Assembly (NCBI RefSeq): GCF_003471165.1
Contig: NZ_QRIL01000022.1
Span: 11,860 to 66,928 of the forward strand
Direction of reading: 5' to 3'
DNA from: Ruminococcus sp. AM22-13
GTDB lineage: Bacteria; Bacillota; Clostridia; Lachnospirales; Lachnospiraceae
DNA: 55,069 bases
This document shows positions 445-10,117 of this stretch, piece by piece. Every line of letters starts with the position of its first letter. Positions within the stretch are counted from its first letter, which is position 1. Under the pieces are notes generated by a model. That model ran no database searches. It was not told the origin of the DNA and saw only the letters and a program-made list of their open reading frames with translations. The position numbers were made by a program, and so were the translations under genes.

Positions 445-786
445 TTATCCAATCTGTGAATCTGATAATTTTGTTTCCTGTGGCATATAAGGTTGAAGAC
501 TTAACTTTACGATCTCTTGTGTTCTTGCATCAGCTTTCTTATAAGCTTGAATTACTTCACTTTCTTCTTTTGTTAAATTTTCATCTGCATCTTTTCCAAA
601 CAATATATAGTCTGCTGAAACTGCGAATATTTCGCAAATAGTTTTAATCTGGTCTATCGTTGGCTTTGACTTATTATTCTTCCAATCTGTTAACGGACTT
701 TTCTTTAATCCCAGTTTTTCGCCTATTTCCTTACCTGTTATGTGATTTTCTTTACATAAAAAATTGATTCGTTCGTAGGTGGACAT
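445..786 (-). CDS. XRE-family phage repressor
   Basis: 113 aa with an N-terminal Cro/C1-type helix-turn-helix (residues about 5-62, including GKEIGEKLGLKKSPLTDW) and a short charged C-terminal helix. There is no peptidase domain, so it is not a LexA-like self-cleaving repressor. Its start follows a strong AAGGAGGG. The gene faces away from the rest of the phage, with two identical TGCGATATTTTCGCA sites in the gap; one lies in the spacer of the rightward promoter. This is the layout expected for a lysogeny repressor that shuts off rightward transcription and perhaps its own. Induction would need a separate antirepressor or a host signal, none of which is obvious here. Confidence 0.88.
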   Translation of the reverse strand: MSTYERINFLCKENHITGKEIGEKLGLKKSPLTDWKNNKSKPTIDQIKTICEIFAVSADYILFGKDADENLTKEESEVIQAYKKADARTQEIVKLSLQPYMPQETKLSDSQIG

Positions 787-1546: not shown

Positions 1547-1733
1547 TTCTGCGCAGTAAGTCAGTCAAGGGTGAGCGAAGCTCATTCATCTTGACCCTTG
1601 ACGGACTGGACACAGCCAGTACAGAGAATCAGACAGGAAGGATGGGAAGCCTGCAGGGTGAGCATCCTTCTTGATTACCCTCATGTACTCCTGTCCTGAG
1701 TTCTTTTCCTTATCAGGGATATGTCACACCGGT

Positions 1734-1936
1734 ACAGACAAATCCAGCTTTTTCAGCGGCCGCTGTCTTCATTATTCAGGAGACAAAAGTCAAGGTCTCC
1801 GCAGGAGCCCGAAGGGTTTAACCTTTACTTTTGGCTCTGTTGAACGGGCGGCAGCCTATCCCCGGCACGACAGGGAAATCCGGCTTTTTACTTCAATCTG
1901 CCGGGACTCTCCCGCATACCGGGGACAGACAATTAT
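1734..1936. repeat. Structured direct repeat, copy 1
   Basis: Aligns without gaps to 2067-2269 at a 333-bp offset; the last 163 nt (from 1774) are nearly identical. It folds into a stem 1784-1796/1821-1833 enclosing two mini-hairpins (CTCC-GCA-GGAG and CCC-GAA-GGG), then a nested hairpin with CCCCGG 1860-1865 / CCGGGG 1919-1924 and CCGGC 1880-1884 / GCCGG 1900-1904. The motif GGGAAATCCGGCTTTT occurs in it, and a weaker version opens the unit. Confidence 0.85.
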
Positions 1937-2066
1937 AGATTTTCCCTCCTTCCGTCTCTGTGTTATTCCGGCAGTATGTACGGACTGACCTTTAAAACGT
2001 CTTTTCCTTGGCTCGCATGAGTCAGGAAGGAAAAGGTGTTTTAATGGGAGGGACGGGACACTCTGG

Positions 2067-2269
2067 ACAGGGAAATCCGGCTTTTACAGCGTCCATTATG
2101 TTTATCATTCAGGAGACAAAAGTCAAGGTCTCCGCAGGAGCCCGGAGGGTTTAACCTTTACTTTTGGCTTTGCTGGACGTGCAGTACTCTATCCCTGGTG
2201 CGACAGGGAAATCCGGCTTTTTACTTCGATATGCCGGAACTCTCCTGCATACCAGGGACAGACAATTAT
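2067..2269. repeat. Structured direct repeat, copy 2
   Basis: Same architecture as copy 1. Differences preserve pairing: C1863-G1921 of copy 1 is T2196-A2254 here, T1879-G1905 becomes T2212-A2238, and G1873-C1913 becomes the wobble G2206-T2246. Both strong copies of GGGAAATCCGGCTTTT in this unit are 136 bp apart, the same spacing as in copy 1. Confidence 0.85.
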
Positions 2270-2455
2270 CTTGACCCTCCCCCTTTGTGCAGCATAACGC
2301 TGTGGAGGGTTTACATAAATCATCGAAACATTAACTATCTCTTTCCCCCGGACTTCCGGGGACGGTAACAGCCCCATTGTGGGATTACATATTAACCAAT
2401 GCCTTTCCTGCTCTTATACAGGTCTGGCAGAATTTTTCAAAGGAGGTTCATGATT

Positions 2456-2785
2456 ATGAACAAAATGAAGATCTTAGTAACTTATGCAGGTGTATGGAAA
2501 ATGGATAACGGAAGCTCCGGCATGACACTGAACTATTTCATGTACGGTGAGAACGGTGAGCAGATGATCTCCCGGGTGGATGCTACAGGCGGACCTGTCG
2601 GACAGCAGAGGGCGAAATGTTCCCTTGACCCATCCATGAGACAGAAGATCACATTTGTACCCGGTATCTATGATGCAACAATGGGAATGAAGATCGGAAG
2701 TGACGGCAAACCTGTCCTGACTGTGGAAGATCTTGATTTCTGCAGCCGTGTACAGATCCTGCTGGAACAGCCTGAAAAGAAATAG
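2456..2785 (+). CDS. Candidate phage ssDNA-binding protein (pV-like position)
   Basis: 109 aa, small, soluble, beta-rich by composition, with no signal or membrane segment. The ATG at 2456 is favoured because AAGGAGG ends 9-10 nt upstream; the ATG at 2450 is too close to it. It lies between the folded non-coding region and the virion genes, where inoviruses commonly encode the pV-type protein that coats new single strands. The assignment rests on size and place, not on a motif. An early-middle regulator is the alternative. Confidence 0.55.
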   Translation: MNKMKILVTYAGVWKMDNGSSGMTLNYFMYGENGEQMISRVDATGGPVGQQRAKCSLDPSMRQKITFVPGIYDATMGMKIGSDGKPVLTVEDLDFCSRVQILLEQPEKK

Positions 2786-3710: not shown

Positions 3711-3980
3711 ATGAAATTCATGAATCTGAAAAAGAAAATTGCCCCTGCATTAATGGGTGGAGCTCTTGCAGTTGCTACTGCTGTTCCTGCATTTGCAGCT
3801 GAAGCTGGTACTGGTCTTTCTTCTGTTGAGACAGCACTGACAACATCCTTTACCAGCGTTGGAAGTTCTATGACAAGCCTTGTCGGAAAGATCCTTCCGA
3901 TTGCACTTCCGATCATGGGAGCTCTTCTCCTTGTTGGATTTGGTATCAAAGCATTTAAGAAAGTTGCAAATAAAGCCTGA
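3711..3980 (+). CDS. Major coat protein (pVIII-like)
   Basis: 89-aa precursor. Basic N-terminus and hydrophobic core (residues 1-29) end in AFA, a clear signal peptidase I site, leaving a mature protein of about 60 aa that starts AEAGTG. A polar helical stretch is followed by a membrane span (about 60-80) and the basic tail GIKAFKKVANKA, strikingly like the GIKLFKKF end of the Ff pVIII coat protein. The tail would contact the phage DNA. Start 3711 is chosen for its purine-rich ribosome binding site; the in-frame start at 3651 lies inside the previous gene. A strong terminator follows at once, as expected for the most abundant phage product. Confidence 0.93.
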   Translation: MKFMNLKKKIAPALMGGALAVATAVPAFAAEAGTGLSSVETALTTSFTSVGSSMTSLVGKILPIALPIMGALLLVGFGIKAFKKVANKA

Positions 3981-4011: not shown

Positions 4012-4047
4012 AAGGTGAGGGAGGGAGACACCTTCCTCACCTTTTTT
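4012..4047 (+). terminator. Terminator after the coat gene
   Basis: A 13-bp stem (4012-4024 with 4031-4043, one G-T pair), a 6-nt loop and a run of six T. It would separate abundant coat transcripts from the adhesin gene. Confidence 0.88.
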
Positions 4048-4054
4048 ATGCAAA

Positions 4055-4118
4055 TGTATCTCAAAAATAACGCAGCATGAGCCGGATCCGGATTACTGCA
4101 GCAAAGAAACGAGATACA
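4055..4118. repeat. TGTATCTC palindromic element A
   Basis: Arms TGTATCTC (4055-4062) and GAGATACA (4111-4118) lie 48 bp apart, with an inner CCGGATCCGG palindrome and CTGCAG. Related elements are at 6619-6672 and 8786-8849. The right arm abuts the ribosome binding site of the pIII-like gene. Confidence 0.85.
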
Positions 4119-6003: not shown

Positions 6004-6618
6004 ATGATTTTCTTATACTCCGGGACTCCCGGATCAGGGAAGAGCCTGCATGTAGCAGAACGGTTGTATCATCTGCTCCGTGCCGGTCGTCCGACTGTGT
6101 GCAACTTCCCCATTAACTTAAACCGTATCCCTAAGAAAAAGCGTGATCTGTTCTGTTACAAAAGTAACCTTGAGATTACTCCAGAGTTCCTGATCGAGTT
6201 CTCTCAGAAACATTTCCAGGGTAAGAAAGTAAAAGAGGGTTCCCTGCTCCTGGTCATTGATGAGTGTCAGCTGATGTTTAATGCCAGGGATTGGAGCAAG
6301 TCCGGACGTGATAAATGGCTTTCATTTTTTACGCTGCACAGACATTACGGCTATGACGTTATTCTGGTCGCCCAGTTTGACCGGATGATTGACCGCCAGA
6401 TCCGGAGCTTGATCGAGTATGAATACATTCACAGGAAGGTAAGTAACTTTGGTCTGCGTGGAATGTTCCTCTGTGCGGTCATGCTGTCTCCGAAGCTTTT
6501 TATTAGTGTAAAGATCTGGTACCCGATGAAGGAGAAAGTAAGCAGTGAATTTTTCAAGTGTAAACGGAAATATTACTCGCTATATGATACTTACCTGATG
6601 CTGGATGCCCCGGAGTGA
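6004..6618 (+). CDS. zot: Zot/pI-family virion assembly ATPase
   Basis: 204 aa. Walker A is GTPGSGKS at residues 7-14, Walker B is LLLVIDE at 81-87, and HRHYGYDVILVAQ near 112-124 fits the sensor region of the Zot family. A moderately hydrophobic stretch (about 147-170) may be the inner-membrane segment. Zot/pI proteins power extrusion of the phage DNA through the membrane while coat proteins replace the ssDNA-binding protein. It is shorter than the roughly 350-400 aa proteins of Gram-negative phages because it lacks a long periplasmic region, sensible for a host without an outer membrane. The name is historic; no toxin activity is implied. Confidence 0.92.
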   Translation: MIFLYSGTPGSGKSLHVAERLYHLLRAGRPTVCNFPINLNRIPKKKRDLFCYKSNLEITPEFLIEFSQKHFQGKKVKEGSLLLVIDECQLMFNARDWSKSGRDKWLSFFTLHRHYGYDVILVAQFDRMIDRQIRSLIEYEYIHRKVSNFGLRGMFLCAVMLSPKLFISVKIWYPMKEKVSSEFFKCKRKYYSLYDTYLMLDAPE

Positions 6619-6672
6619 TGTATCTCATTTCCTCCGGATCTGCCAGGCTTGCTGCAGAAATTTTGAGATACA
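6619..6672. repeat. TGTATCTC palindromic element B
   Basis: Arms TGTATCTCA (6619-6627) and TGAGATACA (6664-6672), extended by one more pair to ATGTATCTCA/TGAGATACAT, with CTGCAG in the inner right side. It follows the Zot stop codon directly and opens the GC-rich intergenic region. Confidence 0.85.
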
Positions 6673-6949
6673 TTTCAGGAAACCTGGCAGTCCCAGAGCC
6701 GGCGGCTGTCCAGAAACTCCGTCAGCCCTGCTGTGTGGGAAGACGGGGGTTGGGGGACCCGTCTGACCGCGCGGCAGCGCTGCCGGAGTTCCGTTACTGC
6801 CCCCTGCCACGGGCCTGTAATACGTGGTCTGAAAATACATACAAAATTCATATGAAACCCTTATAAATACTGGCGAAAATGGCAATTTTAAAATTTGGCG
6901 AAACTGCTCTCTCGCCAAAAACTTTAACAAATTAAAGTGAGGTACTATT
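6673..6949. other. GC-rich hairpin region before rep, candidate replication origin
   Basis: No gene is supported. Base composition rises sharply for about 150 bp, then falls to AT-rich. Stems include AGACGGG 6741-6747 / CCCGTCT 6758-6764 and the 14-bp perfect palindrome CGGCAGCGCTGCCG at 6772-6785; a third, TTTGGCGA 6894-6901 / TCGCCAAA 6912-6919, lies just before the rep ribosome binding site. A nick site for a rolling-circle Rep is normally in such hairpins, often next to rep itself. Origin function is inferred. Confidence 0.55.
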
Positions 6950-8530
6950 TTGATTGATAAACGTGTGTTAGCAACTACAAAAATATATCAGGAATTAGAT
7001 GATGAAAACTGTAAATACTGGTTTGATTTTAACAAATCTAAGTTCCTGCATAACATTGATACTTTTTATTATTCTGTAAAATTAGTGGAGGACTTTACAA
7101 ATGATTCAGCTGATGACTCCGTTCTTAGGTTTCGTAAATTTTTTGAACAGAAGAAATCAATCCTTGACTCCAGGTATGGACAACTTGTACAGATCTTCTT
7201 TCCTGGGTTTGACCGCAGCCTTAATCTGTGCGCTGGCTCTTACGCTGGTTTTTTCAGTATTCGTCTGGAATGCCCGGAATGGTTTGATATTTTCATTGCT
7301 CCTTCTGTTCCTCATGGTTCTGATGGTGGTTTCTCAGTTACGTCTGAGGTCGTTGTACAACTCCGATCTTATATGCTGTGGATGTATGGAGTTCATGAAG
7401 CCTTTGAACGCTCTTATGAATATGTGAAACAGATCTGTGATTACTTCGGTTTACATATCGCTTACTGCCAGGAAAACAGGATTGACTACTGCTGGCATAG
7501 CAATTACTTAAGTAATCCGGAAAGGTTCTTTTCACCAGAGAGCTTCTACAAGATGAGGGTGGACAGGTTCAAAGATGCACTGATACATACTGCAAAAGTT
7601 GGATCAGAAGGATATGAGATTGATTATGTATCAATGGGAAAACGTTCTGACAAGGTATTTATCCGTATCTACCTGAAAAGTAAAGAGGTCATTGAAAAGA
7701 ATTATAAACCCTGGTTCTTTAAGGTATGGCTGTTCAATGGTCTGATCAACCGCTATGACCTGTACTGTTATGAAGAATGTTATAAAAAGCATTCCTGGCA
7801 ATATCTGGATACTGCCAGACTGAAATATTACAGTGAATATGGCTCTGATCCGGAACTCCGGGAACAGTGCAGGGATGTTGTGGAAGGTAATGTAACCATG
7901 TCCCCGGATATGCTGCATAAACTTGCAGATGCATTAACACCGAAGATCAACCTGATCATGAACGTGGAATACCAGACAATGAGAAAGCATACCAAGACTT
8001 ATGAACTGGTACCGTTCCGGGATAACAGTGCAAGGGAAACGTCCAAAAGGATTTATGATTACCTGGATAACCGGAAGATCATAGCTGACTATCTGACCTT
8101 TTATGTGTTCCGCCTGGTCAAACCGGAAGGGGATTCCAATAAATCAAGACGTGATCTGTGTGCTTTCTGGACTGCTCTACGGAGCTGCAGGATGATAGAT
8201 GTAAATGTCAGACCAAAAGATGTGAAGCTGATCCGGCAGTACTGCAGGCAGCTCAACAGTGACATAATGAAAAAGCGTGTGATTAATGCTGCGGTAACTC
8301 TCGGTATCTATACCAGGGGGATCAACAATGATAACGTGGTGCAGGATTGTGTTGAAGCACTTTGCCAGCTGAATGATAATGATATTCATGATGCAAACCG
8401 CTACAAACAGAAAAAAGCCCGCCAATTCAATAGCAGTGAACTGGCGGACACTTATGTAAGTAGTGTTACTCATGAGTATCAGATAGTCAATATCAATACT
8501 GGTGAAGTATCTACGGACATAATACCATAA
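6950..8530 (+). CDS. Rolling-circle replication initiator (Rep_trans-like)
   Basis: 526 aa starting at TTG with GTGAGGT seven bases upstream. Residues 176-180 (NRIDY) and 229-243 (MGKRSDKVFIRIYLK) match the two hallmark blocks of the Rep_trans family used by inoviruses, pT181-type plasmids and some conjugative elements. The first 170 residues are Phe/Tyr-rich; the C-terminal 200 are helical and charged and do not resemble a helicase. It should nick the double-stranded phage DNA to start rolling-circle synthesis of the genome strand. The catalytic tyrosine cannot be picked by eye. The upstream GC-rich region is the likely target. Confidence 0.82.
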   Translation: MIDKRVLATTKIYQELDDENCKYWFDFNKSKFLHNIDTFYYSVKLVEDFTNDSADDSVLRFRKFFEQKKSILDSRYGQLVQIFFPGFDRSLNLCAGSYAGFFSIRLECPEWFDIFIAPSVPHGSDGGFSVTSEVVVQLRSYMLWMYGVHEAFERSYEYVKQICDYFGLHIAYCQENRIDYCWHSNYLSNPERFFSPESFYKMRVDRFKDALIHTAKVGSEGYEIDYVSMGKRSDKVFIRIYLKSKEVIEKNYKPWFFKVWLFNGLINRYDLYCYEECYKKHSWQYLDTARLKYYSEYGSDPELREQCRDVVEGNVTMSPDMLHKLADALTPKINLIMNVEYQTMRKHTKTYELVPFRDNSARETSKRIYDYLDNRKIIADYLTFYVFRLVKPEGDSNKSRRDLCAFWTALRSCRMIDVNVRPKDVKLIRQYCRQLNSDIMKKRVINAAVTLGIYTRGINNDNVVQDCVEALCQLNDNDIHDANRYKQKKARQFNSSELADTYVSSVTHEYQIVNINTGEVSTDIIP

Positions 8531-8785: not shown

Positions 8786-8849
8786 TGTATCTCAAAAGTC
8801 ATGCTGCAGCGTTCTGATCAGCTGCATCTGCAGAAAAAAATGAGATACA
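8786..8849. repeat. TGTATCTC palindromic element C
   Basis: Arms TGTATCTCA (8786-8794) and TGAGATACA (8841-8849) with inner TGCTGCAGC, TGATCA and CTGCAG. It has the same 64-bp overall length as element A. The right arm runs straight into the AAAGGAGGT of the integrase gene. Confidence 0.85.
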
Positions 8850-8861
8850 AAGGAGGTACTT

Positions 8862-9830
8862 ATGAGTATATCATTAAATCAGGCTTATCAGATCTTCATG
8901 GCTGACCGGGAGACTTCCTGTGCTGATAAGACTTTAATTTACTACAGAGAAAACTTAACAGGCTTTTTTACATATGTATCAGAATGTTTTAACAGGCCTG
9001 TTTCTGAGATCAGCTGTGATGAAGTTACAAGGGAACTCTTCCGGAATTATATCTGTTACCTGCGGAAGCGTCCGAAGTTCCAGAACCATCCTTTCCTGGA
9101 ACCGTCCCAGGAACTGCTTTCGTCTACCAGCATCCGGACATATGCCAGGTCAATCAAGGTATTTGCCAATTTCTGCAAGGACAACGAATACTGTGATGAC
9201 TTTACTTACAAGGTGAAGCTTCCCAAAGATGACTCCGGCGAGATCATACCGCTTTATCAGTCAGAAGTTCAGCAGATTGACAAGCTGTTTAACCTGAAAA
9301 CTGAGTTTGGATTGAGAAACTGGTGTATTGTTCACCTTATGCTGGATGCCGGACTGCGATCATCCGAAGTGATCAACCTTCGGTTCTGTGATCTTATGTT
9401 TGATAAAAATATCATCCAGGTATATAAATCTAAGGGATCCAAGACAAGACTTGTAATCCTCTGCCCCCGGCTGAAAGTAAACCTGATGAAGTATTGTGTG
9501 ATCCATCGCAAGTATACAGCCCTTTCCCCAATGTCTTATGTATTCTTACAAATGAGACAGCAGGAAGCGATCAACTCCAATGTGATCAAGCAGCTCTTTG
9601 CCCGGATAAAAAAGAAATCCGGCATAGATCGGCTTCATCCCCATCTTTGTCGACATACTTTTGCAACGTCATATATTAAAGGCGGCGGTAACATCGAGAT
9701 GCTCCGCCTGCTTCTTGGACATACGGATTATAAGGTAACCAGAGTTTATCTGCATCTTGCACAGCAGTCATCCCTTCTGCATGAAGATATTTACCAGCTT
9801 GACCCTGTGTTCTTCAAGCGCTATCAGTAG
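8862..9830 (+). CDS. int: Tyrosine recombinase / phage integrase
   Basis: 322 aa with an N-terminal SAM-like core-binding domain (about 5-115) and a catalytic domain. Catalytic residues are visible: R166 (DAGLRSSEV), K190 or K192, H261 and R264 (HLCRHTF), H287 (LLGHTDY) and Y296 (VYLHL). The length and lack of an arm-binding extension resemble XerC/D-like and compact phage integrases. A strong AAAGGAGGT precedes the ATG. It is adjacent to the tRNA-Lys target, as expected for the enzyme that integrates and excises the element. No obvious excisionase accompanies it. Confidence 0.95.
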   Translation: MSISLNQAYQIFMADRETSCADKTLIYYRENLTGFFTYVSECFNRPVSEISCDEVTRELFRNYICYLRKRPKFQNHPFLEPSQELLSSTSIRTYARSIKVFANFCKDNEYCDDFTYKVKLPKDDSGEIIPLYQSEVQQIDKLFNLKTEFGLRNWCIVHLMLDAGLRSSEVINLRFCDLMFDKNIIQVYKSKGSKTRLVILCPRLKVNLMKYCVIHRKYTALSPMSYVFLQMRQQEAINSNVIKQLFARIKKKSGIDRLHPHLCRHTFATSYIKGGGNIEMLRLLLGHTDYKVTRVYLHLAQQSSLLHEDIYQLDPVFFKRYQ

Positions 9831-9841
9831 CATAAAATACT

Positions 9842-9879
9842 TTTACGCCCCTGTGGAACTTTCTCCGCAGGGGCGTAAA
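9842..9879 (+). terminator. Hairpin after the integrase gene
   Basis: A 12-bp perfect stem (9842-9853 with 9868-9879) and a 14-nt loop right after the integrase stop. The T-run is poor, so it may also act on the minus strand or as part of the attachment region. Confidence 0.65.
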
Positions 9880-9940
9880 TACTTCATTTCTCTCTATTTC
9901 CCAGACACCTTTATTTTTCACTTTCCCGTAAAACATAAAA

Positions 9941-9984
9941 AACACCGTCCCCGCGGCAATCGCTTTGTCCGCAAAAACAGTGTT
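9941..9984 (-). terminator. Terminator of tRNA-Lys
   Basis: On the minus strand a 16-bp stem with five G-U pairs (arms 9969-9984 and 9941-9956), a 12-nt loop and a following T-rich tract, starting a few bases after the tRNA 3' end. It is part of the duplicated attachment segment. Confidence 0.8.
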
Positions 9985-10031
9985 CTTAATGCGCCTTCAG
10001 GGGTTCGAACCCTGGACACCCTGATTAAGAG
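9942..10031. repeat. attR-side direct repeat inside tRNA-Lys
   Basis: Partner of 1-90. It covers the tRNA from the anticodon loop to the discriminator plus the terminator. Recombination between the two copies would excise a circle of 9,941 bp and restore one tRNA. Confidence 0.9.
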
Positions 10032-10062
10032 TCAGGTGCTCTACCAACTGAGCTAAAGGCGC
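9990..10062 (-). tRNA. tRNA-Lys(CUU)
   Basis: A 73-nt cloverleaf: acceptor GCGCCTT/AAGGCGC, D-arm with AGCTCAGTTGGTAGAGC, anticodon loop CTCTTAA (anticodon CTT), T-arm with GGTTCGAACCC, discriminator A, CCA not encoded. It is intact although an inovirus is integrated in its 3' half, because the element supplies the lost end. A strong promoter lies upstream. Confidence 0.96.
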
Positions 10063-10117
10063 ATATTCTTTTGTTTTCTTTGTGTTGATGTTTTGTTAAC
10101 TCCTCAACGCAAGTGAT

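Follow-up and report, generated by a model that had tools for sequence, protein, structure and literature searches.

The longest intergenic gap of an inovirus-type prophage in Ruminococcus sp. AM22-13 spans positions 1547–2440 (894 nt) of the 55,069-nt stretch of DNA analysed here (the window), upstream of an ssb-like gene. The question is what this region does. A preliminary description had seen in it a large structured non-coding element with a 333-bp repeat, selected for its folding either as phage single-stranded (ss) DNA, for packaging or as an origin, or as a large RNA.

The prophage lies at the start of the window, taking up 10 kb, and is integrated in a tRNA-Lys gene. The left attachment repeat (1–90) matches the right one (9942–10031) over 47 and 42 nt, the two blocks being separated by a single mismatch, and the right repeat overlaps the end of tRNA-Lys (9989–10063, minus strand). 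The distance between the repeats, about 9.94 kb, falls inside the range of 5.5–10.6 kb given for Inoviridae genomes by the ICTV (PMC8491893).

A Zot/pI-type assembly ATPase was encoded at 6004–6618 on the plus strand (PF05707, E = 7e-25; PHROG Zot-like, 2e-30; M13 protein I, 1.6e-17). The 526-aa product of 6950–8530 (plus strand) was a Rep_trans-type rolling-circle initiator. Its model matched six chains of rolling-circle initiators in Foldseek (E = 1e-7 to 1.9e-5), with that of G. stearothermophilus at 1e-7. The residues of the RxD and YxKxxE motifs, as defined in PMC5714925, were invariant across 30 sequences. Pfam Rep_trans was detected in two of four initiator members at a best E of 0.0031, which is weak support from sequence alone. 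The ssb-like gene (2456–2785, plus strand) encoded a predicted OB-fold protein (AlphaFold2 mean pLDDT 91). The top Foldseek matches of this model were SSBs and RPA domains, and the SSB of phage Pf3 ranked 15th. The best E was 2.3e-3, none reached 1e-3, and TM was at most 0.51 among the 50 matches listed. These results were supportive, not strong, for a predicted ssDNA-binding protein.

Other genes included an HTH repressor (448–786, minus strand) and a tyrosine integrase (8862–9830, plus strand; PF00589, E = 4.6e-29), which NCBIfam Xer models matched below their own cut-offs. A small protein at 3711–3980 (plus strand), which we infer to be the major coat protein, had syntenic relatives by tblastn and no match in an NCBIfam search. 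From its Zot/pI ATPase, rolling-circle initiator, SSB-like protein and genome size, we class the prophage as of the Inoviridae type. Searches with Zot and Rep gave 50 related loci from Lachnospiraceae and other Clostridia records, which point to a host of the Lachnospiraceae type. The whole prophage matched phage and plasmid records only briefly, at its tRNA and attachment ends, and a protein search of phages with Rep found no match.

Three signals outside the gap were also noted. A perfect promoter, TTGACA-17-TATAAT at 828–856, reads rightward toward the early genes and the element. A terminator-like hairpin lies at 4012–4043, 3' of the presumed coat protein gene, in a position resembling that of the central terminator of Ff phages. 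Paired sites of the form TGTATCTCA...TGAGATACA occur between genes at 4055–4118, 6619–6672 and 8786–8849. Such sites were present in 23 of 51 sources. Of the 82 distinct sites, 75 were either 52–54 or 64–65 bp long, two classes whose lengths differ by about a helical turn; a few of odd length are likely to be chance matches. The exact pattern occurred in one of 200 family genomes, namely the host of the L019 phage. The interiors were only moderately self-complementary (mean z -1.1), and the sites may be operator pairs, processing hairpins or recombination sites.

Within 1547–2440, two copies of a unit (1734–1936 and 2067–2269) were indeed found to align at an exact offset of 333 bp, as first reported. 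Each was 203 nt long, and 175 of the 203 positions were identical in a gap-free alignment. The 28 differences clustered outside a 63-nt core block (1774–1836 in copy 1), which had one difference (permutation p = 0.0045). No run of identity exceeded 38 nt (p = 0.055). A search with a 21-nt pattern, GACARGGAAATCCRGCTTTTT, drawn from the element's own sequence, revealed two iterons per copy that the preliminary description lacked. On the plus strand they lay at 1733–1753 (three mismatches), 1869–1889, 2066–2086 (one mismatch) and 2202–2222.

Homologues with coding constraint in one frame had been named as evidence that would speak against a structural role. Between the two copies no such constraint was seen: the differences fell 9, 12 and 7 by codon position. 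The sole frame open through both copies (plus strand, from 1734) displayed no third-position bias, and a coding role of the repeat was rejected.

The element folded more strongly than dinucleotide shuffles on both strands, with z of -7.8 and -9.1 for plus- and minus-strand RNA and -9.4 and -8.3 for plus- and minus-strand DNA (20 shuffles per strand and molecule type). Strong folding on both strands is as expected of long palindromes, palindromic ssDNA signals included, and did not distinguish RNA from DNA. In stretches of 160 nt, mean z on the plus and minus strands was -2.7 and -2.5 inside the element (nine stretches) versus -0.8 and -0.8 elsewhere in the prophage (111 stretches), where single stretches nonetheless folded equally well or better, such as 9761–9920 (z = -8.95).

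Seven sub-hairpins were folded singly as plus-strand DNA, and six of them gave z between -2.7 and -5.6. The exception, 1628–1686 (z = -0.9), was no better than shuffles. Hairpin H1, GTCAAGGG...CCCTTGAC (1558–1608, plus strand; z = -4.9), sits directly 3' of the open reading frame 1211–1546. The core hairpin of copy 1 (1774–1836) has an outer stem, CAAAAGT/ACTTTTG, with inner hairpins within. The second hairpin of copy 1 (1856–1928) and its partner in copy 2 (2189–2261) gave z of -2.7 and -5.4. Between the copies, an inverted repeat at 1985–2051, absent from the earlier account, formed a long hairpin (z = -5.6). Both copies had been said to keep a stem enclosing two mini-hairpins. This was true of copy 1 folded as ssDNA; copy 2, when best folded, had one inner hairpin within the retained outer stem.

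The compensatory changes proposed between the copies were then a matter of counting. The three named changes exist (C1863-G1921 to T-A, T1879-G1905 to T-A and G1873-C1913 to G-T). Of the 45 pairs in the plus-strand consensus, one was changed on both sides and seven on one side. When the same 28 substitutions were placed at random (400 sets in each of four tests), the mean number of two-sided changes was 1.05–1.49, and 322, 283, 281 and 290 of the 400 sets reached the observed count. These counts do not support the mark of selection on folding that had been read from the changes. The consensus energy was matched by 12, 4, 26 and 17 of the 400 random sets, the observed value beating 93.5–99% of them. 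This is modest evidence that substitutions tend to avoid breaking the fold of the repeat, with no clear strand. The minus-strand consensus had 53 pairs and an energy of -63.2, and the plus-strand consensus 45 pairs and -55.3.

Relatives of the unit were sought next to these internal comparisons. No homologue was found by blastn or covariance models in the 50 related loci, nor in the genomes searched. Covariance modelling, which had been suggested as the way to check the element, gave models of two sub-hairpins that matched the window only, one of them on both of its strands; any other hits had an E of at least 0.19. The set searched with these models comprised the window and 50 of 77 loci, all but L051–L077. 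By blastn, the element DNA had no match in 50,697 phage records or in 72,556 plasmid records, and H1 alone was likewise unmatched in the latter. Viral contigs contained no exact piece of the unit or of the leader preceding the ssb-like gene.

The genome sets compared, which overlap, numbered 5, 397, 98, 145 and 145 for the whole element and 392 for one unit (E limits 0.01 to 1e-4); the unit was found in none. These are soft negatives: outside the five-genome search, scoring covered only the 2–5 best first-look candidates of each genome, and the sets included no positive control. The same searches detected the 3' leader in two genomes, the hosts of the phages L018 and L019, and H1 in 12. Other pieces were at most 40 nt long and chance-like.

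A unit found in this phage only, in an element with a G+C content of 49%, where phage and host have 42%, might suggest a recently gained non-functional or selfish repeat, such as a MITE-like insert. A selfish repeat should be multicopy, however, and neither the 55-kb window nor the genomes searched contained a further copy. The clustering of differences outside the core block also argues against such an insert, which we consider highly improbable.

H1 behaved differently from the unit. Its matches in the 12 genomes were 82–90% identical to query positions 18–58. Four of these loci were inspected (L054, L057, L060 and L073), and Pfam was applied to the three other than L057. L060 contained pieces of a MobA/MobL relaxase and a gene with sigma-70 region 4; L054 and L073 contained sigma-70 region 4 genes. 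H1-type hairpins, read by eye, occupied the corresponding position in L007 and L029. The matches near relaxase and sigma-70 genes suggest that H1 has been exchanged with mobile elements that likewise have an ssDNA stage, the link being one that we infer. Among viral contigs, the H1 pattern matched two and that of a module of L018–L020 matched seven; the latter was written for the form in L020, and the variant of L018 and L002, which is one G shorter, escapes it.

Folding in the ssb-upstream slot was compared among relatives, using 15 of 25 intergenic regions after near-duplicates and truncated ones were dropped. The SSB alignment included 19 of 20 sequences, L034 being dropped because the stretch taken from it contained a stop. 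Mean z over the 450 nt preceding ssb was -2.8 in the 15 loci versus -1.3 for 75 background stretches. In nine loci (the window, L002, L007, L018, L019, L020, L022, L028 and L029) z ranged from -2.6 to -5.5, and in six (L023, L031, L032, L034, L042 and L048) from -0.6 to -2.0. L023 was poorly folded here, yet its Rep is rather close (63%). The slot was the best folded of six sampled stretches in 7 of the 15 loci, while a background stretch folded better in the other eight, including L018 and L028. In L031 and L032 the sampled stretch with the strongest fold was instead the one lying closest to rep on its 5' side (z = -7.8 and -9.6). The ssb-upstream slot is thus often, not always, hairpin-rich.

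The hairpin modules in the slot differed between phages. One was common to L018, L019, L020, L002 and L003, and another to L019 and L029; neither matched the window. A motif search across the 15 gaps recovered the ribosome-binding site of ssb and one module, which is not in the window.

The 3' end of the gap, unlike the repeat, is shared with relatives. A conserved four-helix leader of the ssb-like gene is predicted at 2270–2455 (plus strand), shared with L018 and L019. The gap sequence in common was limited to 2304–2475 with L018 and to 2356–2476 with L019. In the three-sequence alignment, 8 of 28 pairs were changed on both sides, a result that leans toward the structure, as this was derived from the same three sequences. 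One of 500 shuffles scored as high, and structures slid along the alignment gave 0–2. One of five measures, further pair types, was at chance (230 of 500). Judged from these alignments, the putative leader is the best covariation evidence in the span, although the preliminary description had not singled it out.

It could be that only this leader is functional, as an mRNA leader that controls the ssDNA-binding protein through autogenous binding or folding, and that the rest is acquired spacer. Covariation above controls was confined to 2270–2455, the leader is common to L018 and L019, whose gaps are without the repeat, and the perfect consensus promoter reads toward it. There is also a precedent in M13, where gene II is repressed through the binding of gVp to its mRNA (PMC5405960). 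On the other hand, such a reading leaves unexplained the gap-free doubled unit with its one-change 63-nt block, and why the gaps of several relatives, which differ, nevertheless fold strongly. We regard it as unlikely, though deserving of some weight.

The same end of the gap carries a near-consensus leftward promoter, TTGAAA-16-TATAAG (2413–2440, minus strand), whose second hexamer lies in a covarying hairpin; the pattern was written after the sequence had been seen, which makes any chance figure for it post hoc. This bears on the possibility of a structured non-coding RNA, most plausibly one transcribed leftward from 2440–2413 and acting in antisense or in trans. The minus-strand RNA folded well (z = -9.1), and the minus-strand consensus had more pairs and a better energy than the plus-strand one. 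Folding on both strands, however, is expected of any palindrome, and the unit is missing from all relatives found. Simple scans of the element revealed neither a consensus promoter nor a terminator-like site.

No named RNA family had been thought to fit, and this was borne out. The only Rfam match at gathering score in the whole window was tRNA. ROOL and GOLLD are present in Rfam. Five weak matches at 1500–2500 (mir-m22-1 on both strands, RpsF_leader, sR4 and Mu-gpT-DE) scored 15.6–26.6 bits against cut-offs of 37–80 (E = 0.055–3.9), and an Rfam identity for the element was rejected, as no match came near its cut-off. With no Rfam family, no internal consensus promoter and no conservation of the unit in relatives, the large RNA of the preliminary description received little support, and we consider a non-coding RNA doubtful.

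Among the ssDNA functions, the plus-strand origin could be assigned a candidate site by conservation. At 6807–6827 (plus strand), 143 nt upstream of rep, a hairpin CCACG-GGCCTGTAATA-CGTGG was found. Upstream sequence was available for 36 of 38 loci, and 29 of these 36 had a hairpin of this type, with a 10–11-nt loop, between -136 and -234 relative to rep. The stems were CCACG/CGTGG in 21, CCACC/GGTGG in five and GGGCG/CGCCC in three, and the loop kept a GTAA-like core. The search itself specified the loop pattern; applied in the same form, it gave for shuffled upstream sequences a mean of 0.29 loci and a maximum of two in 100 rounds, and for coding stretches 0 of 38. The 5-bp stem was not found in L014, L018, L020, L033, L036, L037 and L039, of which L018 and L020 had the motif with a shorter stem. 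An exact 33-nt form was present in four viral contigs, all of the same phage group.

Stems that are swapped around a loop that is kept are what a nicking site should show, and the plus-strand origin is therefore very probably at this candidate hairpin, 4.5 kb away from 1547–2440. The conserved hairpin expected at a Rep_trans nick site was found there and not in the element. Inovirus intergenic regions do hold the origin (PMC8491893), and iteron-like repeats are present in the element. The rep-upstream hairpin is a far better candidate, with 29 loci against at most two in shuffles, and L018 lacks the repeat even though the two Rep proteins are 82% identical. It seems very unlikely that the element itself is the nicking origin.

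The first proposal, a phage ssDNA element for packaging or origins, agrees best with the data: the element is a hairpin-rich gap of an inovirus-type prophage and is free of coding constraint. The proposal was narrowed, since with the plus-strand origin candidate upstream of rep, "origin" could mean only the start of the complementary strand. Complementary-strand start and packaging are then the ssDNA functions left without a site. Inovirus intergenic regions are described as holding packaging signals and promoters in addition to the origin (PMC8491893), and hairpins serve complementary-strand start or packaging in plasmids and Ff phages (PMC4595007, PMC10175506, PMC10334589).

We are inclined, with moderate confidence, to regard 1547–2440 as a main non-coding region of the phage, acting mainly as folded ssDNA in complementary-strand start, packaging or both, and joined to the leader of the ssb-like gene. 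The hairpins would serve the conversion of the circular viral strand to the double strand, as a start recognized by host RNA polymerase or primase, and/or would mark the viral strand for packaging. The leftward promoter-like site, spotted post hoc, has its second hexamer in a hairpin, an arrangement that would be suited to priming by RNA polymerase. The last 170 nt double as the leader of the ssb-like gene and probably contribute to the control of its expression. The conjectural parts of this proposal are ssDNA as the acting molecule, the step that it serves and the role of each hairpin. Several results count against control by ssDNA: with no homologue of the unit, conservation says nothing on function; there was no strand preference; 6 of the 15 slots were poorly folded, and in eight a background stretch folded better; two-sided changes in the repeat did not exceed chance; other stretches of the prophage folded equally well or better; and searches for known sso or packaging sequences gave no match.

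Known systems resemble the element in part. The intergenic region of the Ff phages (M13, f1 and fd) is also a non-coding gap with several hairpins, comprising a packaging hairpin and the minus- and plus-strand origins (PMC5405960, PMC10334589). Unlike it, the element has no plus-strand origin candidate, contains a doubled 203-nt unit and has no sequence match in phages. The sso of Gram-positive rolling-circle plasmids and ICEBs1 is about 200 nt long with three stem-loops and is active when single-stranded (PMC4595007). The sharing of H1 with mobile-element loci recalls these sites, whereas the element has no sequence match in plasmid records. CTXphi is likewise a filamentous phage with a Rep_trans initiator (PMC5714925). 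Its ori(+), a plus-strand origin, measures 167 bp and contains several inverted repeats (PMC4439123), while the plus-strand candidate here is short and upstream of rep.

The Enterocloster inoviruses offer a similar setting, being integrated in and secreted by gut commensals formerly called Clostridium (PMC10061712). In the main text of that paper the words intergenic, packaging, hairpin and non-coding do not occur, and, judged by titles, no paper was found on cis-acting DNA signals of Gram-positive gut inoviruses. More speculatively, the element may represent a new class of ssDNA control region in gut-type inoviruses, in which the doubled hairpin-plus-iteron unit, resembling no known sso or packaging signal, would serve as tandem complementary-strand starts or packaging sites within a slot of module exchange, some modules being shared with conjugative elements. 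We hold this wider reading to be improbable at present.

For this group of phages, a strong candidate for the plus-strand origin, seen in 29 of 36 loci, is now separated from a variable and often hairpin-rich slot upstream of ssb. This separation makes each of the two directly testable.
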